Shown: piece after piece, positions 15,751 to 24,294 of the stretch
Layout of the letters: the number at the start of each line of letters is the position of its first letter
Numbering within the stretch: the stretch's first letter is position 1
Assembly: GCA_030831315.1 (NCBI GenBank)
Contig: JAURLI010000062.1
Location: 1 to 37,763, forward strand
DNA length: 37,763 nt
Direction of reading: 5' to 3'
Source of the DNA: Alphaproteobacteria bacterium
GTDB lineage: Bacteria; Pseudomonadota; Alphaproteobacteria; SMXQ01
Notes under the pieces: generated by a model
The model's input: the letters and a program-made list of their open reading frames with translations, nothing else
The model's database searches: none
What the model was told of the DNA's origin: nothing
Program-made: the position numbers and the translations under genes

Positions 15751-18369
15751 ATGACGAAGCGCATGCTTATCGATGCGACTCACGCCGAAGAAACGCGCGT
15801 GGTCGTATTGAACGGAAACCGTTTGGACGAGTTCGATTTCGAAACGTCCACCAAGAAACAGCTCAAGGGAAACATCTACCTCGCCAAGGTCACGCGGGTA
15901 GAGCCATCGTTGCAGGCCGCGTTCGTGGAATTCGGCGGCAACCGCCACGGCTTCCTGGCCTTCAGCGAAATTCATCCCGACTACTACCAGATCCCCGTCG
16001 CCGACCGCGCCGCGCTGATCCGCGAACATGAAGAGGCGCTGGCCGCCGAAGCCGCCGCCGAAGAGGCCGAGGACGACGAAATCGCCGCGGCCGAAGCCGA
16101 CGACGAAATTCCGCCGCCGCCGGAGCCACCCGAGGAAATCGTCCGCGAAATCCCGGCCGAGGTCGAGGACCGCGCCGATGCGCCGCAGGATGCCCTGCCC
16201 GCAGAAAGCGTGGAAGCGCCCGCATCCGAACCTGCGGAAGCGGCGTCGCTTGAAGCCCCTGCCGAGGCCAATGAAAATGTCCCCGCCGAAGCGGCGACCG
16301 CGGCCGATAAGTTCTCCGACAACGTGGTCGATCTTCCCGCCCCGGCCCCGATCGAGGAAGACGGCGACGAAGACGATGCCGAGGCCCATCACGAGGAGCG
16401 CCGCCGCAGCCGGCCGCGCCGCCATCGCTACAAGATCCAGGAAGTTATCAAACGGCGCCAGATTCTGCTGGTCCAGGTTGTCAAGGAAGAGCGCGGCAAC
16501 AAGGGCGCGGCGCTGACCACCTATCTTTCGCTCGCCGGGCGCTATTGCGTGCTGATGCCCAATACCGCCAAGGGCGGCGGCATTTCGCGCAAGATCAACA
16601 GTTCCACCGACCGCAAGCGGCTCAAGAGCCTGATCTCCGAGATGGAGATTCCCGACGGCATGGCGGTGATCCTGCGGACCGCCGCGGTCGAACGTTCGAA
16701 GGCGGAGCTCAAGCGCGACTTCGAATTCCTGATGCGGTCATGGGACCAGGTGCGCGAATTGACCCTGCAATCGATTGCGCCGACGCTGGTCTACGAGGAA
16801 GCGAACCTGATCAAGCGTTCGATTCGCGATCTCTACACCAAGGACATCGACGAGGTTCAGGTCGAGGGCGAAGAAGGTTACAAGACCGCCAAGGAATTCA
16901 TGCGCATGCTCATGCCGAGCCATGCCAAGAAGGTCCAACCCTACAGGGACCCCGAAATTCCGCTGTTCCACCGCTACCAGGTGGAAGGGCAGCTCGATGC
17001 CATGCATTCGCCGCAGGTCCAGCTGAAGTCGGGCGGCTATATCGTTATCAATCCGACCGAAGCGCTGGTCTCCATCGACGTCAACTCGGGCCGCGCCACG
17101 CGCGAACGCAACATCGAGGAAACGGCCTACAAGACGAACCTGGAAGCGGCCGACGAAATCGCCCGCCAGCTGCGCCTGCGCGACCTTGCTGGTCTGATCG
17201 TCATCGACTTCATCGACATGGCGGAACACCGCAACCAGCACAATGTCGAGCGGCGCATGAAGGAAGCAATGCGCAACGACCGCGCGCGCATCCAGATCGG
17301 GCGCATCAGCGCCTTCGGCCTGCTCGAACTGTCGCGCCAGCGCCTGCGCCCGAGCCTGATCGAGGCCTCGACCCAGCCGTGCCCGCATTGCCTGGGAACC
17401 GGCCTGATCCGCTCAACCGAATCGGCGGCGCTTCATGTCCTGCGTGCCATCGAGGAAGAAGGCATCCGCCGTCGTTCGATCGAACTGAATATCGACGTCG
17501 ATCCGGGCGTGGCGCTCTACATTCTCAACCAGAAGCGGGGCATGCTCAGGGCTATCGAAAGCCGCTACGGCTTCCGCGTCACCATCAGCGGCGACAGCAG
17601 CCTGATCCCGCCGACCTACAATCTCGAACGCATTGAAGGGCGCCCTGTCAGCGAAGTGCGGGAACTGCCGAAGCCCGAAGCCGTGGTCGAGGAACCTGAT
17701 GTCGAAGAAGACATCGTCGAAGACGAAGACGAAAACGAATCCGCGGAAGCCGAAACCCGTCAGGGCAATGGCGAAGCCGGCGAGGAACGCGGCCGTGGCC
17801 GTCGTCGTCGCCGCCGCCGCCGCCGCGGCCCCCGCGGTGAAGGCGAAGAAGGCGGCGAAGAGTCCCGCCCGATGCGCGCCACCGAAGGCGAGACGGCCGA
17901 AGCCGGCGAACAGGCGGCAGAGATGCCTTCCGGAGAGAACCGTGAAGCCAGCGAATCCGAAGGTACCGAAGGCGAAGGCGAAGGCGGCGATCGTGCGCCC
18001 AAGCGCCGTCGCCGCGGGCGTCGCGGTGGACGCCGTCGCCGCGGACGCGAGGGCAGCGAACGCCCCGGTACCGAGGGCGCCGAAGGCGCTGAGTCTGCCG
18101 AGGCCGCTGAAGCCCCCGAGGCCGCAGATCGCACGCAGGAAACTGCAACGGAATCTCCGGCTGCCGTTGAGTCCCTTCCGCCGCAACCCGGGAACGAACC
18201 CGCGCCTGCCTCATCGGGAAACGGCGAGGACAAGTCCCATGCCCCCGCCATCATTGAAACGCGGCCGGTAGAACCGGCGCCCGTGGAACCCGCCGTCGAG
18301 GCTGCGGTCCCACCGCCAAAGGCCGAAGGGCCCAAGCGCAAGGGCTGGTGGAACCGGTTCGGCAGCTAG
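15751..18369 (+). CDS. rne: ribonuclease E
   Basis: An 872-residue essential endoribonuclease that initiates mRNA decay and matures rRNA and tRNA. The N-terminal half is catalytic. An S1-type domain starts near residue 36 and is interrupted by an acidic, proline/alanine-rich insertion (about 91-228). The DNase I-like metal site has Asp443 (SIDVNSG) and Asp486 (VIDFIDM). The zinc-link is CPHC at 544-547. The C-terminal half (from about 645) is disordered, alternating Glu-rich and Arg-rich blocks expected to bind RNA. It ends in KRKGWWNRFGS; a terminal GWW motif is the PNPase-binding element described for Caulobacter RNase E. GGAG precedes the ATG. The gene is divergent from amiC and closed by a strong terminator. 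Confidence 0.97.
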   Translation: MTKRMLIDATHAEETRVVVLNGNRLDEFDFETSTKKQLKGNIYLAKVTRVEPSLQAAFVEFGGNRHGFLAFSEIHPDYYQIPVADRAALIREHEEALAAEAAAEEAEDDEIAAAEADDEIPPPPEPPEEIVREIPAEVEDRADAPQDALPAESVEAPASEPAEAASLEAPAEANENVPAEAATAADKFSDNVVDLPAPAPIEEDGDEDDAEAHHEERRRSRPRRHRYKIQEVIKRRQILLVQVVKEERGNKGAALTTYLSLAGRYCVLMPNTAKGGGISRKINSSTDRKRLKSLISEMEIPDGMAVILRTAAVERSKAELKRDFEFLMRSWDQVRELTLQSIAPTLVYEEANLIKRSIRDLYTKDIDEVQVEGEEGYKTAKEFMRMLMPSHAKKVQPYRDPEIPLFHRYQVEGQLDAMHSPQVQLKSGGYIVINPTEALVSIDVNSGRATRERNIEETAYKTNLEAADEIARQLRLRDLAGLIVIDFIDMAEHRNQHNVERRMKEAMRNDRARIQIGRISAFGLLELSRQRLRPSLIEASTQPCPHCLGTGLIRSTESAALHVLRAIEEEGIRRRSIELNIDVDPGVALYILNQKRGMLRAIESRYGFRVTISGDSSLIPPTYNLERIEGRPVSEVRELPKPEAVVEEPDVEEDIVEDEDENESAEAETRQGNGEAGEERGRGRRRRRRRRRGPRGEGEEGGEESRPMRATEGETAEAGEQAAEMPSGENREASESEGTEGEGEGGDRAPKRRRRGRRGGRRRRGREGSERPGTEGAEGAESAEAAEAPEAADRTQETATESPAAVESLPPQPGNEPAPASSGNGEDKSHAPAIIETRPVEPAPVEPAVEAAVPPPKAEGPKRKGWWNRFGS

Positions 18370-18422: not shown

Positions 18423-19586
18423 CTAGCGCCGGTTGCGCCCCTGCGACCAGGATTGGAGACGACGCACCGCCTCGCGCATTTCCTCGCCCGAGCCCGCATA
18501 GCTGAACCGCATGAAGCGCCCGCCTGCGCCCGCGTCGAAATCGATCCCCGGGGTTACGGCAACGCCCGCGGTTTCGAGAATTTCGCGGGCGAGCGCCGCG
18601 CTGTCCGCACCGAAGGCTTCGATCCCCGCGTAGATGTAAAACGCGCCGTCGGCGGCGGCGAAAGGCCCGAAGCCGCAGCGCGGCAAACCCTCCAGCAGGA
18701 TGTCCCGGTTCTCGCGATAGCGCGCGACATTTGCCTCAAGTTCGGCCGTGCAATCGAACACGCCGAGTGCCGCGAACTGCGACAGCGTCGGCGGCGATAT
18801 GAAAAGATTCTGCGCAAGACATTCGGTCGTCCGCAGCAGATCCTCGGGCACCACCATCCATCCCAGCCGCCAACCGGTCATCGAATAATATTTCGAGAAA
18901 CTGTTGATCACGACCGCGGCAGGATCGAGCGCCGCCATGGTCACGGCCTCCTTGCCGTAGGTGATGCCGTGATAGATCTCGTCGGAGATCACGCGCACCC
19001 CGTTCGCCCGGCACCAGTCGACCAGCCGGCGCAATGCTGCCTCGTCGAGCATCGATCCGGTCGGATTGGCGGGACTCGCCACGATCAGGCCATCGGGTGG
19101 ACGATCGAGCGCTTCGAGCAGTTCGACCGTCGGCTGGAACCCGTCTTCGCGACGCGCGGGCAGGCTGATGGTTTCGATATCGAGGGCAGCAAGAATATTG
19201 CGGTAGCCGGGATAGCCGGGCGCAGCGAAGGCGACGCGATCGCCCGCATCGAAGGCTGCAAGAAAAGAAAGAATCAACGCCCCCGACGAACCGGTCGTGA
19301 CCGCAATGCGGCGCTCGGGCAGGTCGATGCCGTATTGGTCGCGGTAGCGGGCGACGATGGCCCGGCGCAAAGCCGGAAGTCCGAAGGCTTCCGTATAGCC
19401 GATACGGTCGGTCTCAAGTGCTGCGCGCGCCGCAGTTATGACACCCGCGGGCGCCGGGGTCGATGGCTGGCCGACCTCGAGGTGGATGATATCGAACCCC
19501 TCGGCGGCACGGGCGTTGGCCGCCGCCATCACATCCATGACGATGAAAGGTGGTATCTGTCCGCGCCGTGAAGACTTGATCGCCAT
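18423..19586 (-). CDS. PLP-dependent aminotransferase, class I/II
   Basis: A 387-residue fold-type I aminotransferase. The PLP lysine is Lys232 in SFSKYYSMTGWRLGW. The phosphate/ring-binding motifs include TTGSSGAL, ASPANPTG and SDEIYHG, and the substrate-carboxylate arginine is probably in GRFMRFSYAG near the C-terminus. The start MAIKSSRRGQIPPF is at ATG 19586. The sequence resembles the broad aspartate/aromatic aminotransferase group; the amino donor cannot be set from sequence alone. It lies nine bases upstream of nothing co-directional in the same unit except the GGT-like gene that precedes it on this strand, whose stop is at 19596, so the two are likely co-transcribed. Confidence 0.9.
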   Translation of the reverse strand: MAIKSSRRGQIPPFIVMDVMAAANARAAEGFDIIHLEVGQPSTPAPAGVITAARAALETDRIGYTEAFGLPALRRAIVARYRDQYGIDLPERRIAVTTGSSGALILSFLAAFDAGDRVAFAAPGYPGYRNILAALDIETISLPARREDGFQPTVELLEALDRPPDGLIVASPANPTGSMLDEAALRRLVDWCRANGVRVISDEIYHGITYGKEAVTMAALDPAAVVINSFSKYYSMTGWRLGWMVVPEDLLRTTECLAQNLFISPPTLSQFAALGVFDCTAELEANVARYRENRDILLEGLPRCGFGPFAAADGAFYIYAGIEAFGADSAALAREILETAGVAVTPGIDFDAGAGGRFMRFSYAGSGEEMREAVRRLQSWSQGRNRR

Positions 19587-19595
19587 GAACGGCGG

Positions 19596-21236
19596 TCAGT
19601 TCTGCTGGGCGAGGCCGAAGGCACGGCGATCGGCACGTGCGTCACACTGGCTGCGCTCGCCATCCAAACCGAGAGGACAGGCAATCGCATTGGCCCGCCC
19701 CAGACTGGGCGCGGTCACGACCTGATACCCCGCCTCGCGCAGGTTCGCGCCGAACGGTCGCGCGTCGTGCCTGTCCTCGACGACGACGCGGTCCGGCCGG
19801 GCCGGATGGTAGAAACGCGGGGCCGACAGCATCGTCTCCAGCGATTGCGTCGTCTGCAGGACCTTTGCCGCCGTATCGGCAAGCAGGATCGGCGCCACAG
19901 CGCCGCCCGTTGCTGCGCCGACGAACTGCATCTGGTGCTGGGTGCCGTTTCGCAGGATCATCAGGCTGACCGGCGCAGCAGCGCGCGCCGGGTCGGGCGG
20001 CGCCGCCATCACGATGCCGGTTTCGGCGGCAATGCGCCCGGCACCCATGATGCCGTTCATGGTGAAGCCGCAGGCGACCGACTGGCCGTAGACATCCGAA
20101 GCAACAACACTGGCCGAGCCGAGATCGACCGGTTCGACGACGTCGCCCGCGCCGAAATTGGGCGGCGGCGAGCGCCGCGAGAGGTTGAGGCCCACCATCA
20201 ACCGGTCAATCCGATCCTCGGCAACGAAAGCATCCGCCGGATCGGGAACGCCGGCAGGCGTCGCGAACCAGCGACCAGCATCACCATAGGCGCGCCGCGA
20301 CACCTCGGTCAGGGTCAGCGCCCTTTTGGCGCCAAGCGCATCGGAGGCAAGATTGCGGTTATAGAGCAACGCCCAGGCCTGCGCCGAAACGACACCCGCC
20401 GCCGTCGGCGGGAAATGGGCGACCTGATTGCCGCGCGACACGGTGACGACCGGCCGGAAACGGGGCACCAGTCCCCGCAATTCCTCGGCCGTCAAAAGCA
20501 TGCCAGACCGGGTAAAATCGTCGGCGATGCGCCGCGCCGAGGAGCCGGTGTAGAACTGCGTCGGCTGGCGGCGCAACTGGCTGAGCGTCGCCGCCAGCGC
20601 GAATTGCTGGACGCGCTCGCCCTCCGCCACGGGATTGCCGGAATTGCGGGTGAAGATGGCGGCAAGTGCCGGATCGCGTACGGCAATACCGGGCGCAGCG
20701 GCGAGCGACCGGGCCAGCGCCCGGCTTGCCGGATACCCAAGACGGGCAAGGCCTTCGGCCGGACCAAGCAGCTGTGTCCAAGGCAGGTGCCCGTATTTCG
20801 CGTGCAGCGCCTGCATGGCGCGAGGCGCAATTGGCGCCGGACGTCGGGCAAAAGGACCCGAAGCAAGATGAGTAAAATCGAGGGCCTCGGCCACCGATCT
20901 GGCCCTGTCGTGAACGATGCAGACGCCACCCGCACCGAGCGACGCCGCCGTCGGCAGGGTCACGGACATGGTGAAATAGGCGGCGATCACCGCATCCGCG
21001 GCACTGCCGCCCGCGGCCAGGATATCGCGCGCGACAAGGACGGCCTGCGGCTCGTCGGCGGCAACGGCACCGCCGAACCCCTTGGCGTAGCCCGAAACGC
21101 GGTTGTCGAGAACGCCCTGAACCTTCGCGCATCCCGCCGTCGCGGCAAGCGCCAAAATGACCGATGCGCGCAACAGGGTTTGACCGAACAGCCTGCGATG
21201 CCTACCCTGCCCGCAAAACCGGGTATCGTGAACCAT
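19596..21236 (-). CDS. gamma-glutamyltranspeptidase-like protein, predicted lipoprotein, catalytic site altered
   Basis: About 546 residues from the ATG at 21236 (an ATG at 21248 is also open). The N-terminus has a basic stretch, a hydrophobic segment and AATAGC, which looks like a lipoprotein signal with Cys near 36. The GGT fold is recognisable in AADEPQAVLVARDILAAGGSAADAVIAA, in SLGAGGVCIVHD and in the small-subunit-like region ending SLETMLSAPRFYHP. In active enzymes the precursor is cut before a threonine in T-T-H-x-S-V-V. The aligned segment here is DLGSASVVASD, with no threonine at the nucleophile position. The protein may be a non-processing, non-enzymatic relative, or use the nearby serine. 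It faces away from the M48 gene with the two start codons overlapping. Confidence 0.8.
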   Translation of the reverse strand: MVHDTRFCGQGRHRRLFGQTLLRASVILALAATAGCAKVQGVLDNRVSGYAKGFGGAVAADEPQAVLVARDILAAGGSAADAVIAAYFTMSVTLPTAASLGAGGVCIVHDRARSVAEALDFTHLASGPFARRPAPIAPRAMQALHAKYGHLPWTQLLGPAEGLARLGYPASRALARSLAAAPGIAVRDPALAAIFTRNSGNPVAEGERVQQFALAATLSQLRRQPTQFYTGSSARRIADDFTRSGMLLTAEELRGLVPRFRPVVTVSRGNQVAHFPPTAAGVVSAQAWALLYNRNLASDALGAKRALTLTEVSRRAYGDAGRWFATPAGVPDPADAFVAEDRIDRLMVGLNLSRRSPPPNFGAGDVVEPVDLGSASVVASDVYGQSVACGFTMNGIMGAGRIAAETGIVMAAPPDPARAAAPVSLMILRNGTQHQMQFVGAATGGAVAPILLADTAAKVLQTTQSLETMLSAPRFYHPARPDRVVVEDRHDARPFGANLREAGYQVVTAPSLGRANAIACPLGLDGERSQCDARADRRAFGLAQQN

Positions 21237-22587
21237 GGGTAAACTCATCAGAACGCGTTCTGCCTTCCTGTTGGCTATGGCCCTGTTCTTCATGTGCTGG
21301 AACGCACAGAAGCCCCAGGCCGCCGGGCTCATCCGCGACGCCGAGATCGAAAATACCATTCGCACCTATGCAACGCCACTGTTTGCGGCGGCGGGGCTCC
21401 GCGCGTCCGACATCAGCATTTTCATACTTAACGACCCGCAGCTGAACGCCTTCGTCGCCGGAGGACAGAACCTTTTCGTCAATACCGGGTTCCTGATCCG
21501 TACGCGCAGCGCAGCCGAGGTGATCGGGGTTATCGCCCACGAAACCGGCCATATCTCGGGCGGGCACTTAGCGCGGTTTTCCAACCAGATCAATACCGCC
21601 TCGAACACGGCGCTGGTGACGACGCTGCTGGGTGCGCTGACGGCGCTTGCAAGCGGACGGGCCGATGCCGGGGCGGCGGTGATAACGGCAGGCCAAGGAT
21701 TTGCCATCGGTAACCTGCTCAACTACAGCCGCACGCAGGAATCGGCCGCCGACCAAGCCGCCTTGTCGTTCCTTGATCGTACCGGCCAGTCCGCCGAAGG
21801 CCTCGTCACATTCCTGAGGACCATCGAAAATCAGGAGTTCCTCTCCTCCAACAACCAAGACCCCTACGTCCGCACCCATCCGATTACCCGCGAACGCGTA
21901 CGCAATGTCGAACAGCACCTCGGCAAATCCACGAATACCGCCAAGAAAGCTCCGCCCGAATTCGAGGAAATGCACCGGCGCATGGTGGCCAAGCTGGTGG
22001 GCTACATCGATTATCCGAGCGTCGTGTTCGACCGCTACCCTGAAAGCGATACCTCGATCACGGCGCGCTATGCCCGCGCCGTCGCCTATTACCGGGTTCC
22101 CGATCTCGCCAAGGCGCTGCCGCTCGTCGACGGTTTGATCCGCGACGAACCAAAAAACCCGTATTTTCACGAACTCAAAGGCCAGATGCTGTTTGAGAAT
22201 GGCCGCATCGCCGAGTCCCTCGCCCCCAATGCCGAAGCGGTTCGCCTGTCACCCGAGTCATCCCTGCTGCGCATCGGCCTGGCACGATCTCAGATCGAAA
22301 GCCAGAACCCGGCGCTGCTGAAGGATGCGATCCAGAACCTTCTCTATGCGACCGGCGCCGATCCTCTCTACAGCTTCGGCTGGGACCAGCTTGCCGTCGC
22401 CTATGGCCGCGACGGACAGCTTGGACTTTCGGCCCTCGCCCAGGCCGAAAGCGCGCTGGTGCGCGGCCGCAAGAAAGACGCCATGTTCCATGCGGTGCGC
22501 GCGGAAAAGCGCATCGACAAGGGCTCGGCCGCCTGGCTCAGGGTTCAGGACATCAAGCAGGCCGCCCGCGAAAACGAGCGCAAGTAG
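21235..22587 (+). CDS. M48 metalloprotease with TPR-like C-terminus (BepA/YfgC-like)
   Basis: A 450-residue exported protein. The signal peptide spans about residues 1-31. The M48 catalytic domain follows, with the zinc motif HETGH at 102-106 and the third ligand Glu169 in TQESAADQAA. The C-terminal 180 residues are helical, with repeats such as YARAVAYYRVPDLAKALPLVDGL, consistent with TPR units. Family knowledge: BepA in E. coli is a periplasmic protease/chaperone that degrades or assists stalled outer-membrane proteins such as LptD. The same role is inferred, not shown. The ATG at 21235 overlaps the start of the divergent GGT-like gene in a shared CATG. It converges with maiA, eight bases between the stops. 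Confidence 0.9.
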   Translation: MGKLIRTRSAFLLAMALFFMCWNAQKPQAAGLIRDAEIENTIRTYATPLFAAAGLRASDISIFILNDPQLNAFVAGGQNLFVNTGFLIRTRSAAEVIGVIAHETGHISGGHLARFSNQINTASNTALVTTLLGALTALASGRADAGAAVITAGQGFAIGNLLNYSRTQESAADQAALSFLDRTGQSAEGLVTFLRTIENQEFLSSNNQDPYVRTHPITRERVRNVEQHLGKSTNTAKKAPPEFEEMHRRMVAKLVGYIDYPSVVFDRYPESDTSITARYARAVAYYRVPDLAKALPLVDGLIRDEPKNPYFHELKGQMLFENGRIAESLAPNAEAVRLSPESSLLRIGLARSQIESQNPALLKDAIQNLLYATGADPLYSFGWDQLAVAYGRDGQLGLSALAQAESALVRGRKKDAMFHAVRAEKRIDKGSAAWLRVQDIKQAARENERK

Positions 22588-23298: not shown

Positions 23299-24294
23299 TC
23301 AGATCAGGCCGGCAAGCGGCGACGACGGATCGGCGTAGCGCTTCTTCGCCATCCGCCCCGCGAGATAGGCATAACGCCCCGCCTCGATCGCGAGCTTCAT
23401 GGCGCGCGCCATCATCACCGGCTGGCGCGCCTCGGCGATGGCCGTGTTCATCAGCACGCCATCGCAACCAAGTTCCATGGCGATGGCCGCATCGGACGCC
23501 GTTCCCACGCCTGCATCGACGAGCACGGGCACCCGCGCATTTTCCTTGATGATGCGGATATTGACCGGGTTCTGGATGCCGAGCCCCGAACCGATCGGCG
23601 CGGCAAGCGGCATGATGGCAACGCAGCCGAGTTCTTCCAGCCGCTTGGCCTGGATCGGATCGTCGGCGCAATAGACCATCACCTTGAAGCCCTCCTTGAT
23701 GAGGACTTCCGCCGCGCGAAGGGTTTCGGGCATGTCGGGATACAGCGTCTTCTGATCGCCCAGCACCTCGAGCTTCACGAGGTCCCAGCCGCCCGCCTCG
23801 CGCGCAAGGCGGAGCGTGCGAATGGCGTCTTCGGCCGTGTAGCAGCCTGCGGTATTGGGAAGATAGGTGTAACGCTTGGGATCGACATAATCAGTCAGCA
23901 TCGGCTGCTTGGGGTCGGCGATATTGACCCGGCGCACTGCGACGGTGACGATTTCAGCGCCAGAGGCTTCGATGGCCCGGGCGGTTTCCTCGAAATCCTT
24001 GTATTTGCCGGTTCCGACCAGCAGACGCGAATGATAGGTGCGCCCTGCAACCTCAAGCGGGTCGGGATCGACCAATCCCAGATCGTCGGCGCCGCCGCCG
24101 ATGAAATGCACGATTTCGAGCCGGTCGCCCGGTCCCACCTGCGTTTGGCCATAGGCCGAGCGCGGAACGATTTCAAGGTTAAGCTCGACCGCGACCTTGC
24201 GCGGATCGATGCCGATGGTCCCCAGCAATGCCTCGAGCGTGCGGGCATCGCCAAGCGGGCGCATTTCGCCGTTGATGGTGATCTGGCCGGTCAT
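23299..24294 (-). CDS. thiG: sulfur carrier ThiS fused to thiazole synthase ThiG
   Basis: A single 331-residue frame with two domains. Residues 1-68 are a ThiS-like ubiquitin fold ending VHFIGGG, the position of the free C-terminal Gly-Gly in stand-alone ThiS. Residues about 78-331 are ThiG, a TIM-barrel enzyme that builds the thiazole phosphate of thiamine from DXP, dehydroglycine and the ThiS thiocarboxylate. The Schiff-base lysine is expected at Lys174 ([10 protein letters not shown]). [23 protein letters not shown] and [13 protein letters not shown] are conserved. The Gly-Gly is followed by [11 protein letters not shown], so a thiocarboxylate cannot form without cleavage. Fusions of this kind are known in alphaproteobacteria. 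The start is ATG 24294. No THI-box riboswitch is seen upstream. Confidence 0.94.

Follow-up and report, generated by a model that had tools for sequence, protein, structure and literature searches.

The locus

The window considered here, by which is meant the whole stretch of 37,763 nucleotides from an alphaproteobacterium, carries an intact gene, here designated GGTL, for a protein of the gamma-glutamyltranspeptidase (GGT) type (Table 1). Its open reading frame matches PF01019 (E 4.8e-57, 194.4 bits, the Pfam cut-off being 27), and with TIGR00066, the GGT equivalog model, it scores 137.1 bits, which is well under that model's cut-off of 357.85. The source genome (2.7 Mb, 99% complete) encodes two more PF01019 proteins, one an ordinary GGT with TTHF and in addition a lipobox-like Cys (L001), the other a remoter homologue with TVH (L002), and the cell thus has GGT-like genes besides the one in the window.

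GGTL is flanked by a divergent gene for a BepA-like M48 metalloprotease and, on its own strand, by a gene for an aminotransferase. The first ATGs taken for GGTL (21236, minus strand) and for the M48 gene (21235, plus strand) overlap head to head within CATG (21234-21237), which implies either that each promoter is inside the other gene or that one of the starts is further in. Beyond the protease gene, a single open reading frame of 331 codons (23299-24294, minus strand) has both ThiS (residues 5-68) and ThiG (residues 82-326), i.e., it is a ThiS-ThiG fusion.

Table 1. Positions in the window of GGTL, of its diagnostic residues (numbered from Cys1 of the putative mature chain) and of neighbouring genes
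Feature	Position	Strand	Remarks
RNase E/G gene	15751..18369	+	member of conserved block
Class I/II PLP aminotransferase gene	18423..19586	-	9 bases downstream of GGTL, same strand
GGT-like lipoprotein gene (GGTL), lipidation predicted	19596..21236	-	intact, 546 aa; mature chain from Cys1, 511 residues
Cys496	19644..19646	-	100/101 members; exception L071, cut by contig end
Cys485	19677..19679	-	invariant, 101/101; probable disulfide with Cys496
Short turn, about residues 376-381	19990..20006	-	replaces GGT NN..(D/T)DF loop with E. coli Asp433; bounds approximate
Cys354	20070..20072	-	invariant, 101/101; probable disulfide with Cys71, by elimination
DLGSASVVASD segment, residues 336-346	20094..20126	-
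Ser339	20115..20117	-	at GGT nucleophile Thr (E. coli Thr391); profile-profile alignment
Thr87	20871..20873	-	at GGT alpha-carboxylate-binding Arg (E. coli Arg114); R in 5/101 members vs 29/31 GGTs
Cys71	20919..20921	-	invariant, 101/101; probable disulfide
Cys1 of putative mature chain	21129..21131	-	context LALAATAGC, lipobox-like; Thr at -3
M48 metalloprotease gene with TPRs, BepA-like	21235..22587	+	divergent; 141.2 bits to BepA model NF052400, below cut-off of 570

A family under selection

In a search of 61 genomes related open reading frames were taken as members in 29 (L006-L034), the other matches being weaker and some of them canonical GGTs; named genomes, when scanned, supplied 161 relatives, and 80 of these were retained. 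The labels of the scan relatives are mostly Rhodospirillales or unclassified Alphaproteobacteria or Proteobacteria, and include Magnetospirillum (several genomes), Telmatospirillum and Magnetovibrio. Removal of identical rows, of the truncated L030 and of the copy from the window itself leaves a family set of 101, and in the tree these members form one side of a fully supported branch (SH-aLRT 100), apart from 32 GGT-type proteins. Within that tree L066 (VBWB01000010.1), labelled Stygiobacter (Ignavibacteriota), nests among Magnetospirillum sequences and is probably a misbinned or mislabelled MAG; the labels of L064 (Asaia) and L099 (Rhizobium) also look doubtful.

How far does the family extend? 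A phylum-wide search of 299 genomes yielded 15 matching genomes, all of them alphaproteobacterial and with some of the matches resembling canonical GGTs; restriction to Alphaproteobacteria is not proven by this, the number of other classes among those 299 genomes not being shown. Another search found matches, apparent canonical GGTs included, in 106 of 289 genomes, and in 52 of the 289 at E <=1e-100 (a count from the table of matches, not individually checked); it misses divergent members, the genomes of L033 and L034 having given no match at 1e-70. Among 11 genomes searched for PF01019 proteins there were five in which GGTL was the sole one found: G164 (0.9 Mb), G048 (1.2 Mb), G031 (1.4 Mb, 87% complete), G083 (1.8 Mb) and G235 (2.2 Mb). 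The G048 member (L185:5951-7339; 463 aa) is very divergent, scoring 163 bits, and keeps the five cysteines discussed below along with one more.

Given that its catalytic residues are lost, as set out below, might GGTL be a decaying GGT paralogue retained by chance? One further match, in G067, does carry an in-frame stop, as decay would have it. However, the frames are open in all 101 rows used (L071 being truncated where its contig ends), and all 12 close pairs compared have dN/dS below 1, with values of 0.04-0.20 in the eight pairs where dS exceeds 0.3, which indicates that the gene is under selection. Purifying selection, invariant cysteines and retention in a genome of 0.9 Mb already contradict chance retention, to which we accord next to no credence. 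By the same open frames and dN/dS values a pseudogene or a sequencing error is ruled out, G067 being the exception elsewhere.

Fold and nucleophile site

An AlphaFold2 model of the window protein, built with an alignment of 81 rows, is confidently of GGT fold (pLDDT 92.3, pTM 0.93). Its best structural match (Foldseek, VIA) is 2e0w, the unprocessed T391A precursor of E. coli GGT (Z 44.8, rmsd 2.6, 469 residues aligned, 24% identity), and the B. licheniformis T399A precursor is also among its best matches (Z 40.9), though this ranking of precursors first is no proof of non-processing since a single-chain model favours single-chain entries. The first-pass annotation, in suggesting a folded relative of GGT, was thus borne out at the level of the model.

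It had also suggested that the catalytic threonine is missing, and that too holds. In a profile-profile alignment with 31 GGTs as reference (probability 100%, E 1e-102) Ser339 falls gaplessly on the nucleophile Thr, and the model strand 339-346 begins at this serine, which is where we take the first strand of the small subunit to be expected. A phmmer alignment to 2e0w inserts a one-residue gap and puts Ala340 at the site instead. A real GGT whose Thr had been misaligned was rejected as an explanation: there is no Thr within two residues of the site, the profile alignment is gapless, and the Ala340 of phmmer is not Thr either. The DLGSASVVASD segment to which attention had been drawn is indeed present, slightly off from the 20110-20145 at which it had been placed (Table 1).

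Across the family the nucleophile column holds Ala in 42 of the 101 members, Gly in 30, Ser in 20, Thr in three and other residues in six, as against Thr in 31 of 31 control GGTs. On the tree the residue has changed at least 34 times, and the change between hydroxyl and no hydroxyl has occurred at least 18 times. Ser is shared by the window protein and L036-L039; L008, in the same clade of six rows, has Gly. With such variation over family and tree, the Ser of the window is most readily taken as just one among a number of residues, mostly small, that are tolerated there. The first-pass annotation had named a Thr or Ser correctly placed at the nucleophile position as telling against a non-processing protein. 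For the window the profile alignment does place a Ser there; it is not a family trait, as the Ala and Gly counts and the Gly of L008 make plain. According to a published GGT phylogeny (PMC4568574), every known GGT retains the nucleophile Thr. Non-processing in the manner of GGT is still what the missing Thr would predict, and probably correctly.

The substrate pocket

Could the protein nevertheless still be an Ntn hydrolase, with Ser339 in the window's subgroup serving as nucleophile on a different amide substrate? The gapless alignment of Ser at the site in five related sequences is consistent with it. So is activity that persists in part when Thr is replaced by Ser in real GGTs, roughly a tenth remaining according to PMC8062742 (T380S minus 92%, T399S minus 89%). 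In addition, the Gly-Gly pair of the oxyanion hole is kept in most members (first Gly 88/101, second 82/101; ATGGAV in the window), and Thr357 falls in the column that holds the second Thr of TYT, where 84 of the 101 members have T and 16 have S. Other losses do not fit this. The His of TTH is gone in all 101 members and the substrate-binding Arg in 96; the columns of the NN..(D/T)DF loop are gaps in 101 of 101 members (MAFFT), its Asp, present in 29 of 31 GGTs, and its Phe having no partner with hhalign. Coupled with the Gly of L008 and the repeated switching between hydroxyl and no hydroxyl, these make a working hydrolase of another specificity distinctly improbable. The reading favoured here is that of a pseudoenzyme, and that GGTL is not a working GGT can be held with little doubt.

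The Ser-Ser pair of P.SSM (Ser462/463 in E. coli) has also been eroded, its first Ser being found in 10 and its second in 38 of the 101 members, compared with 29 and 25 of 31 GGTs (MAFFT); the window has Ala and Pro in these columns with a lone Ser nearby (PVSLM), at a place where, next to the deleted loop, the alignment is less certain. More broadly, in a comparison that used 29 GGTs, two aberrant PF01019 rows having been excluded, there are 32 positions that 90% or more of the GGTs conserve but fewer than 20% of the GGTL family have. The expectation that landmarks of the large and small subunits would be otherwise preserved therefore fails, the substrate-site Arg and Asp being among the positions lost. 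There are 36 conserved positions common to GGTs and GGTL, one of which is the N-terminal Cys, found in some GGTs, and 18 are specific to GGTL. As judged from these alignments, much of the residue loss falls on the catalytic pocket and the framework is retained. With most of the gamma-glutamyl pocket gone, binding of gamma-glutamyl compounds is unlikely.

Five cysteines

Strict lipoboxes follow the pattern [LVI][ASTVI][GAS]C, and the TAGC of the window, with Thr at -3, is outside it. A Cys preceded by a hydrophobic leader was located in all 101 members. This count is to some extent built in, since the script that trimmed each row to begin at Cys1 took whichever Cys was nearest upstream of the start of the conserved domain; it located such a Cys in all 29 loci of the first set and in all 80 of the second, which overlaps the first. 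The box is strict in 68 of the 101 and passes a loose pattern in 99, the commonest forms noted being LAAC (22) and LAGC (19), and in every member row at least 60% of the 15 residues that precede Cys1 are hydrophobic. The N-terminal Cys of lipoprotein type that had been noted at the outset is accordingly present, and GGTL is very likely anchored through a lipid on it. Is that what is new about GGTL? That idea was discarded, as about a dozen of the 31 control GGTs look alike. A simple regular expression picks 14 of 31, at least two of them spuriously, and the canonical GGT controls with a lipobox-like Cys are L001, L128, L129, L132, L136, L137, L139 and L145-L149 (12/31). Going by such N-termini, lipid-anchored active GGTs may be common in Alphaproteobacteria.

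The other four cysteines are a different matter. All four columns are without Cys in 29 GGTs and likewise in three GGT-type rows aligned with the family, and counted from Cys1 there are exactly five Cys in 98 of 101 chains, no other Cys column reaching three members. Model strands 479-484 and 497-500 flank Cys485 and Cys496 with a ten-residue loop between them, and with those two as one pair only Cys71 and Cys354 are left to form the other. The set is naturally read as a lipid-modified Cys together with two disulfides, and we consider it highly probable that there are two disulfides, the pairing being the one that these positions suggest.

Strict invariance, an export signal and a DsbA-like gene that is often behind the M48 gene would equally suit cysteines that are redox-active or bind a metal. 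However, there is no CXXC, and save for 485 and 496 the cysteines are far apart in sequence; those two are at strand ends with a ten-residue loop, just as in a structural disulfide, and a redox or metal-binding role appears very improbable. Structural disulfides are what is assumed in the following.

Gene neighbourhood

A divergent M48 gene adjoins GGTL in 75 of the 76 loci with more than 600 bases of flank, four of the 80 being too short and the one miss being L071; in the partly overlapping set L007-L034 it is beside GGTL in 27 of 28, the miss being L034. HEXXH is present in 74 of 74 M48 open reading frames that score above 200 bits. GGTL is seldom seen without the protease next door, and the envelope context earlier proposed from the divergent BepA-like protease is in this respect corroborated. 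Adjacency alone is modest evidence, because a larger block (amidase, rne, aminotransferase, GGTL, M48) is conserved and the gene order may be partly inherited, and because divergent genes whose starts overlap are hard to pull apart. Stronger evidence of pairing is provided by small genomes that keep the two side by side: GGTL is still divergent from M48 in G164, G048, G031 and G083, and in the 14 kb read of G048 amidase, rne, aroQ, accB, accC, thiG and GST were not found.

That the protease does not need GGTL is clear from BepA-like M48 genes that occur without it. Fourteen genomes were chosen as lacking GGTL, and in 13 there is none beside M48 (in G040 the M48 match is only weak), the fourteenth being G048. 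Among those 13 an aminotransferase gene is close to M48 on the opposite strand in four (in L155 only as overlapping open frames), and rne adjoins M48 on the same strand in six. Of the 64 GGTL loci long enough to show one, 46 have a DsbA-like gene behind M48, at a distance of up to about 3 kb; such a gene is behind M48 also in 9 of 14 loci from the genomes picked for lacking GGTL, from which it seems to belong to M48 rather than to GGTL. None was found in the window among open reading frames of at least 60 codons at E 1e-4.

What then of the aminotransferase, whose gene adjoins GGTL in the same orientation in 72 of 76 loci and is separated from it by so few bases in the window? Such close co-orientation would accord with a lipid-anchored pseudoenzyme having a role unrelated to M48, e.g., solute or peptide binding linked to the aminotransferase. 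In the stretch read beside GGTL in the four small genomes where it is still next to M48, no aminotransferase gene was found, and its candidacy as functional partner is weakened to that extent; we regard a role of this type as rather unlikely.

A proposed role

The proposal to which we incline is that GGTL is a lipid-anchored, disulfide-stapled pseudo-Ntn-hydrolase working with the M48/BepA-like protease in envelope quality control, and as a whole it has perhaps an even chance of being right. Its pseudoenzyme part is strong. The partnership with the protease we infer, physically or functionally, and would rate at evens or a little short of that.

In this proposal the GGTL precursor would be exported and lipidated on Cys1. 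It would remain a single chain, the site of the self-cleaving nucleophile having drifted mostly to small residues, and its fold would be made rigid by two disulfides, most likely 485-496 and 71-354, the latter of which would join the half that was once the large subunit to the half that was once the small one. The product would most likely serve the M48/BepA-like protease as a scaffold tethered to the membrane or as a partner that binds clients, in a setting of outer-membrane protein folding and quality control. The model behind this is E. coli BepA which, according to PMC8423444, acts on LptD at the BAM complex both as helper and as protease, and by analogy with which the role is conceived.

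A bolder version can be imagined, in which the disulfide-stapled family is a dedicated outer-membrane anchor or client sensor for the BepA-like protease and its DsbA neighbour, the GGT cleft holding unfolded or wrongly oxidised envelope proteins. It is improbable, and if true there would be a component of outer-membrane assembly that is not known from E. coli.

Whatever the role, a widespread clade has lost the Thr and the substrate site yet has kept the fold and gained a strict set of cysteines, which suggests the reuse of an old enzyme shape as a structural partner. The constant pairing with a BepA-like protease raises the question of an alphaproteobacterial lipoprotein in outer-membrane quality control. 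There is also a practical aspect: as the window protein and other members pass Pfam's general cut-off, automatic annotation may well call them gamma-glutamyltransferase and so overcount GGT activity.

Relation to known systems

In the open-licence literature no paper describing the GGTL family was found. The fold is already known, and what is described here is a pseudoenzyme branch of it, marked by a definite signature and by a genomic partner that is nearly constant. Of that partner, the M48 domain, TPRs and HEXXH are in common with E. coli BepA, though its 141 bits are under the equivalog cut-off of 570, and the BepA passages of PMC8423444 have no GGT-like partner of BepA.

Loss of the classical role within the GGT fold is not in itself without parallel. 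LmbA and Ant6 are, according to PMC5519988 and PMC6085292, GGT homologues that have no gamma-glutamyl activity and are still Ntn hydrolases. With the LmbA type (6j3i, 6j3a) GGTL has the fold and the lack of a classical GGT role in common, but in GGTL the nucleophile is not conserved, and the model is closer to E. coli GGT (Z 44.8) than to the LmbA type (Z 34.3). Lipoprotein-type GGTs with the active-site motif (L001, C89) share the lipobox-like N-terminus; L001, however, retains the TTHF, Arg and Asp that GGTL does not. In relation to GGT proper (PF01019, MEROPS T03; E. coli 2e0w/2dbu), what is common is the whole predicted fold, the Gly-Gly oxyanion pair and the shared conserved positions, whereas GGTL is without the nucleophile Thr, TTH, the counterpart of Arg114 and the Asp433 loop, has four invariant cysteines specific to the family, and forms a separate clade.
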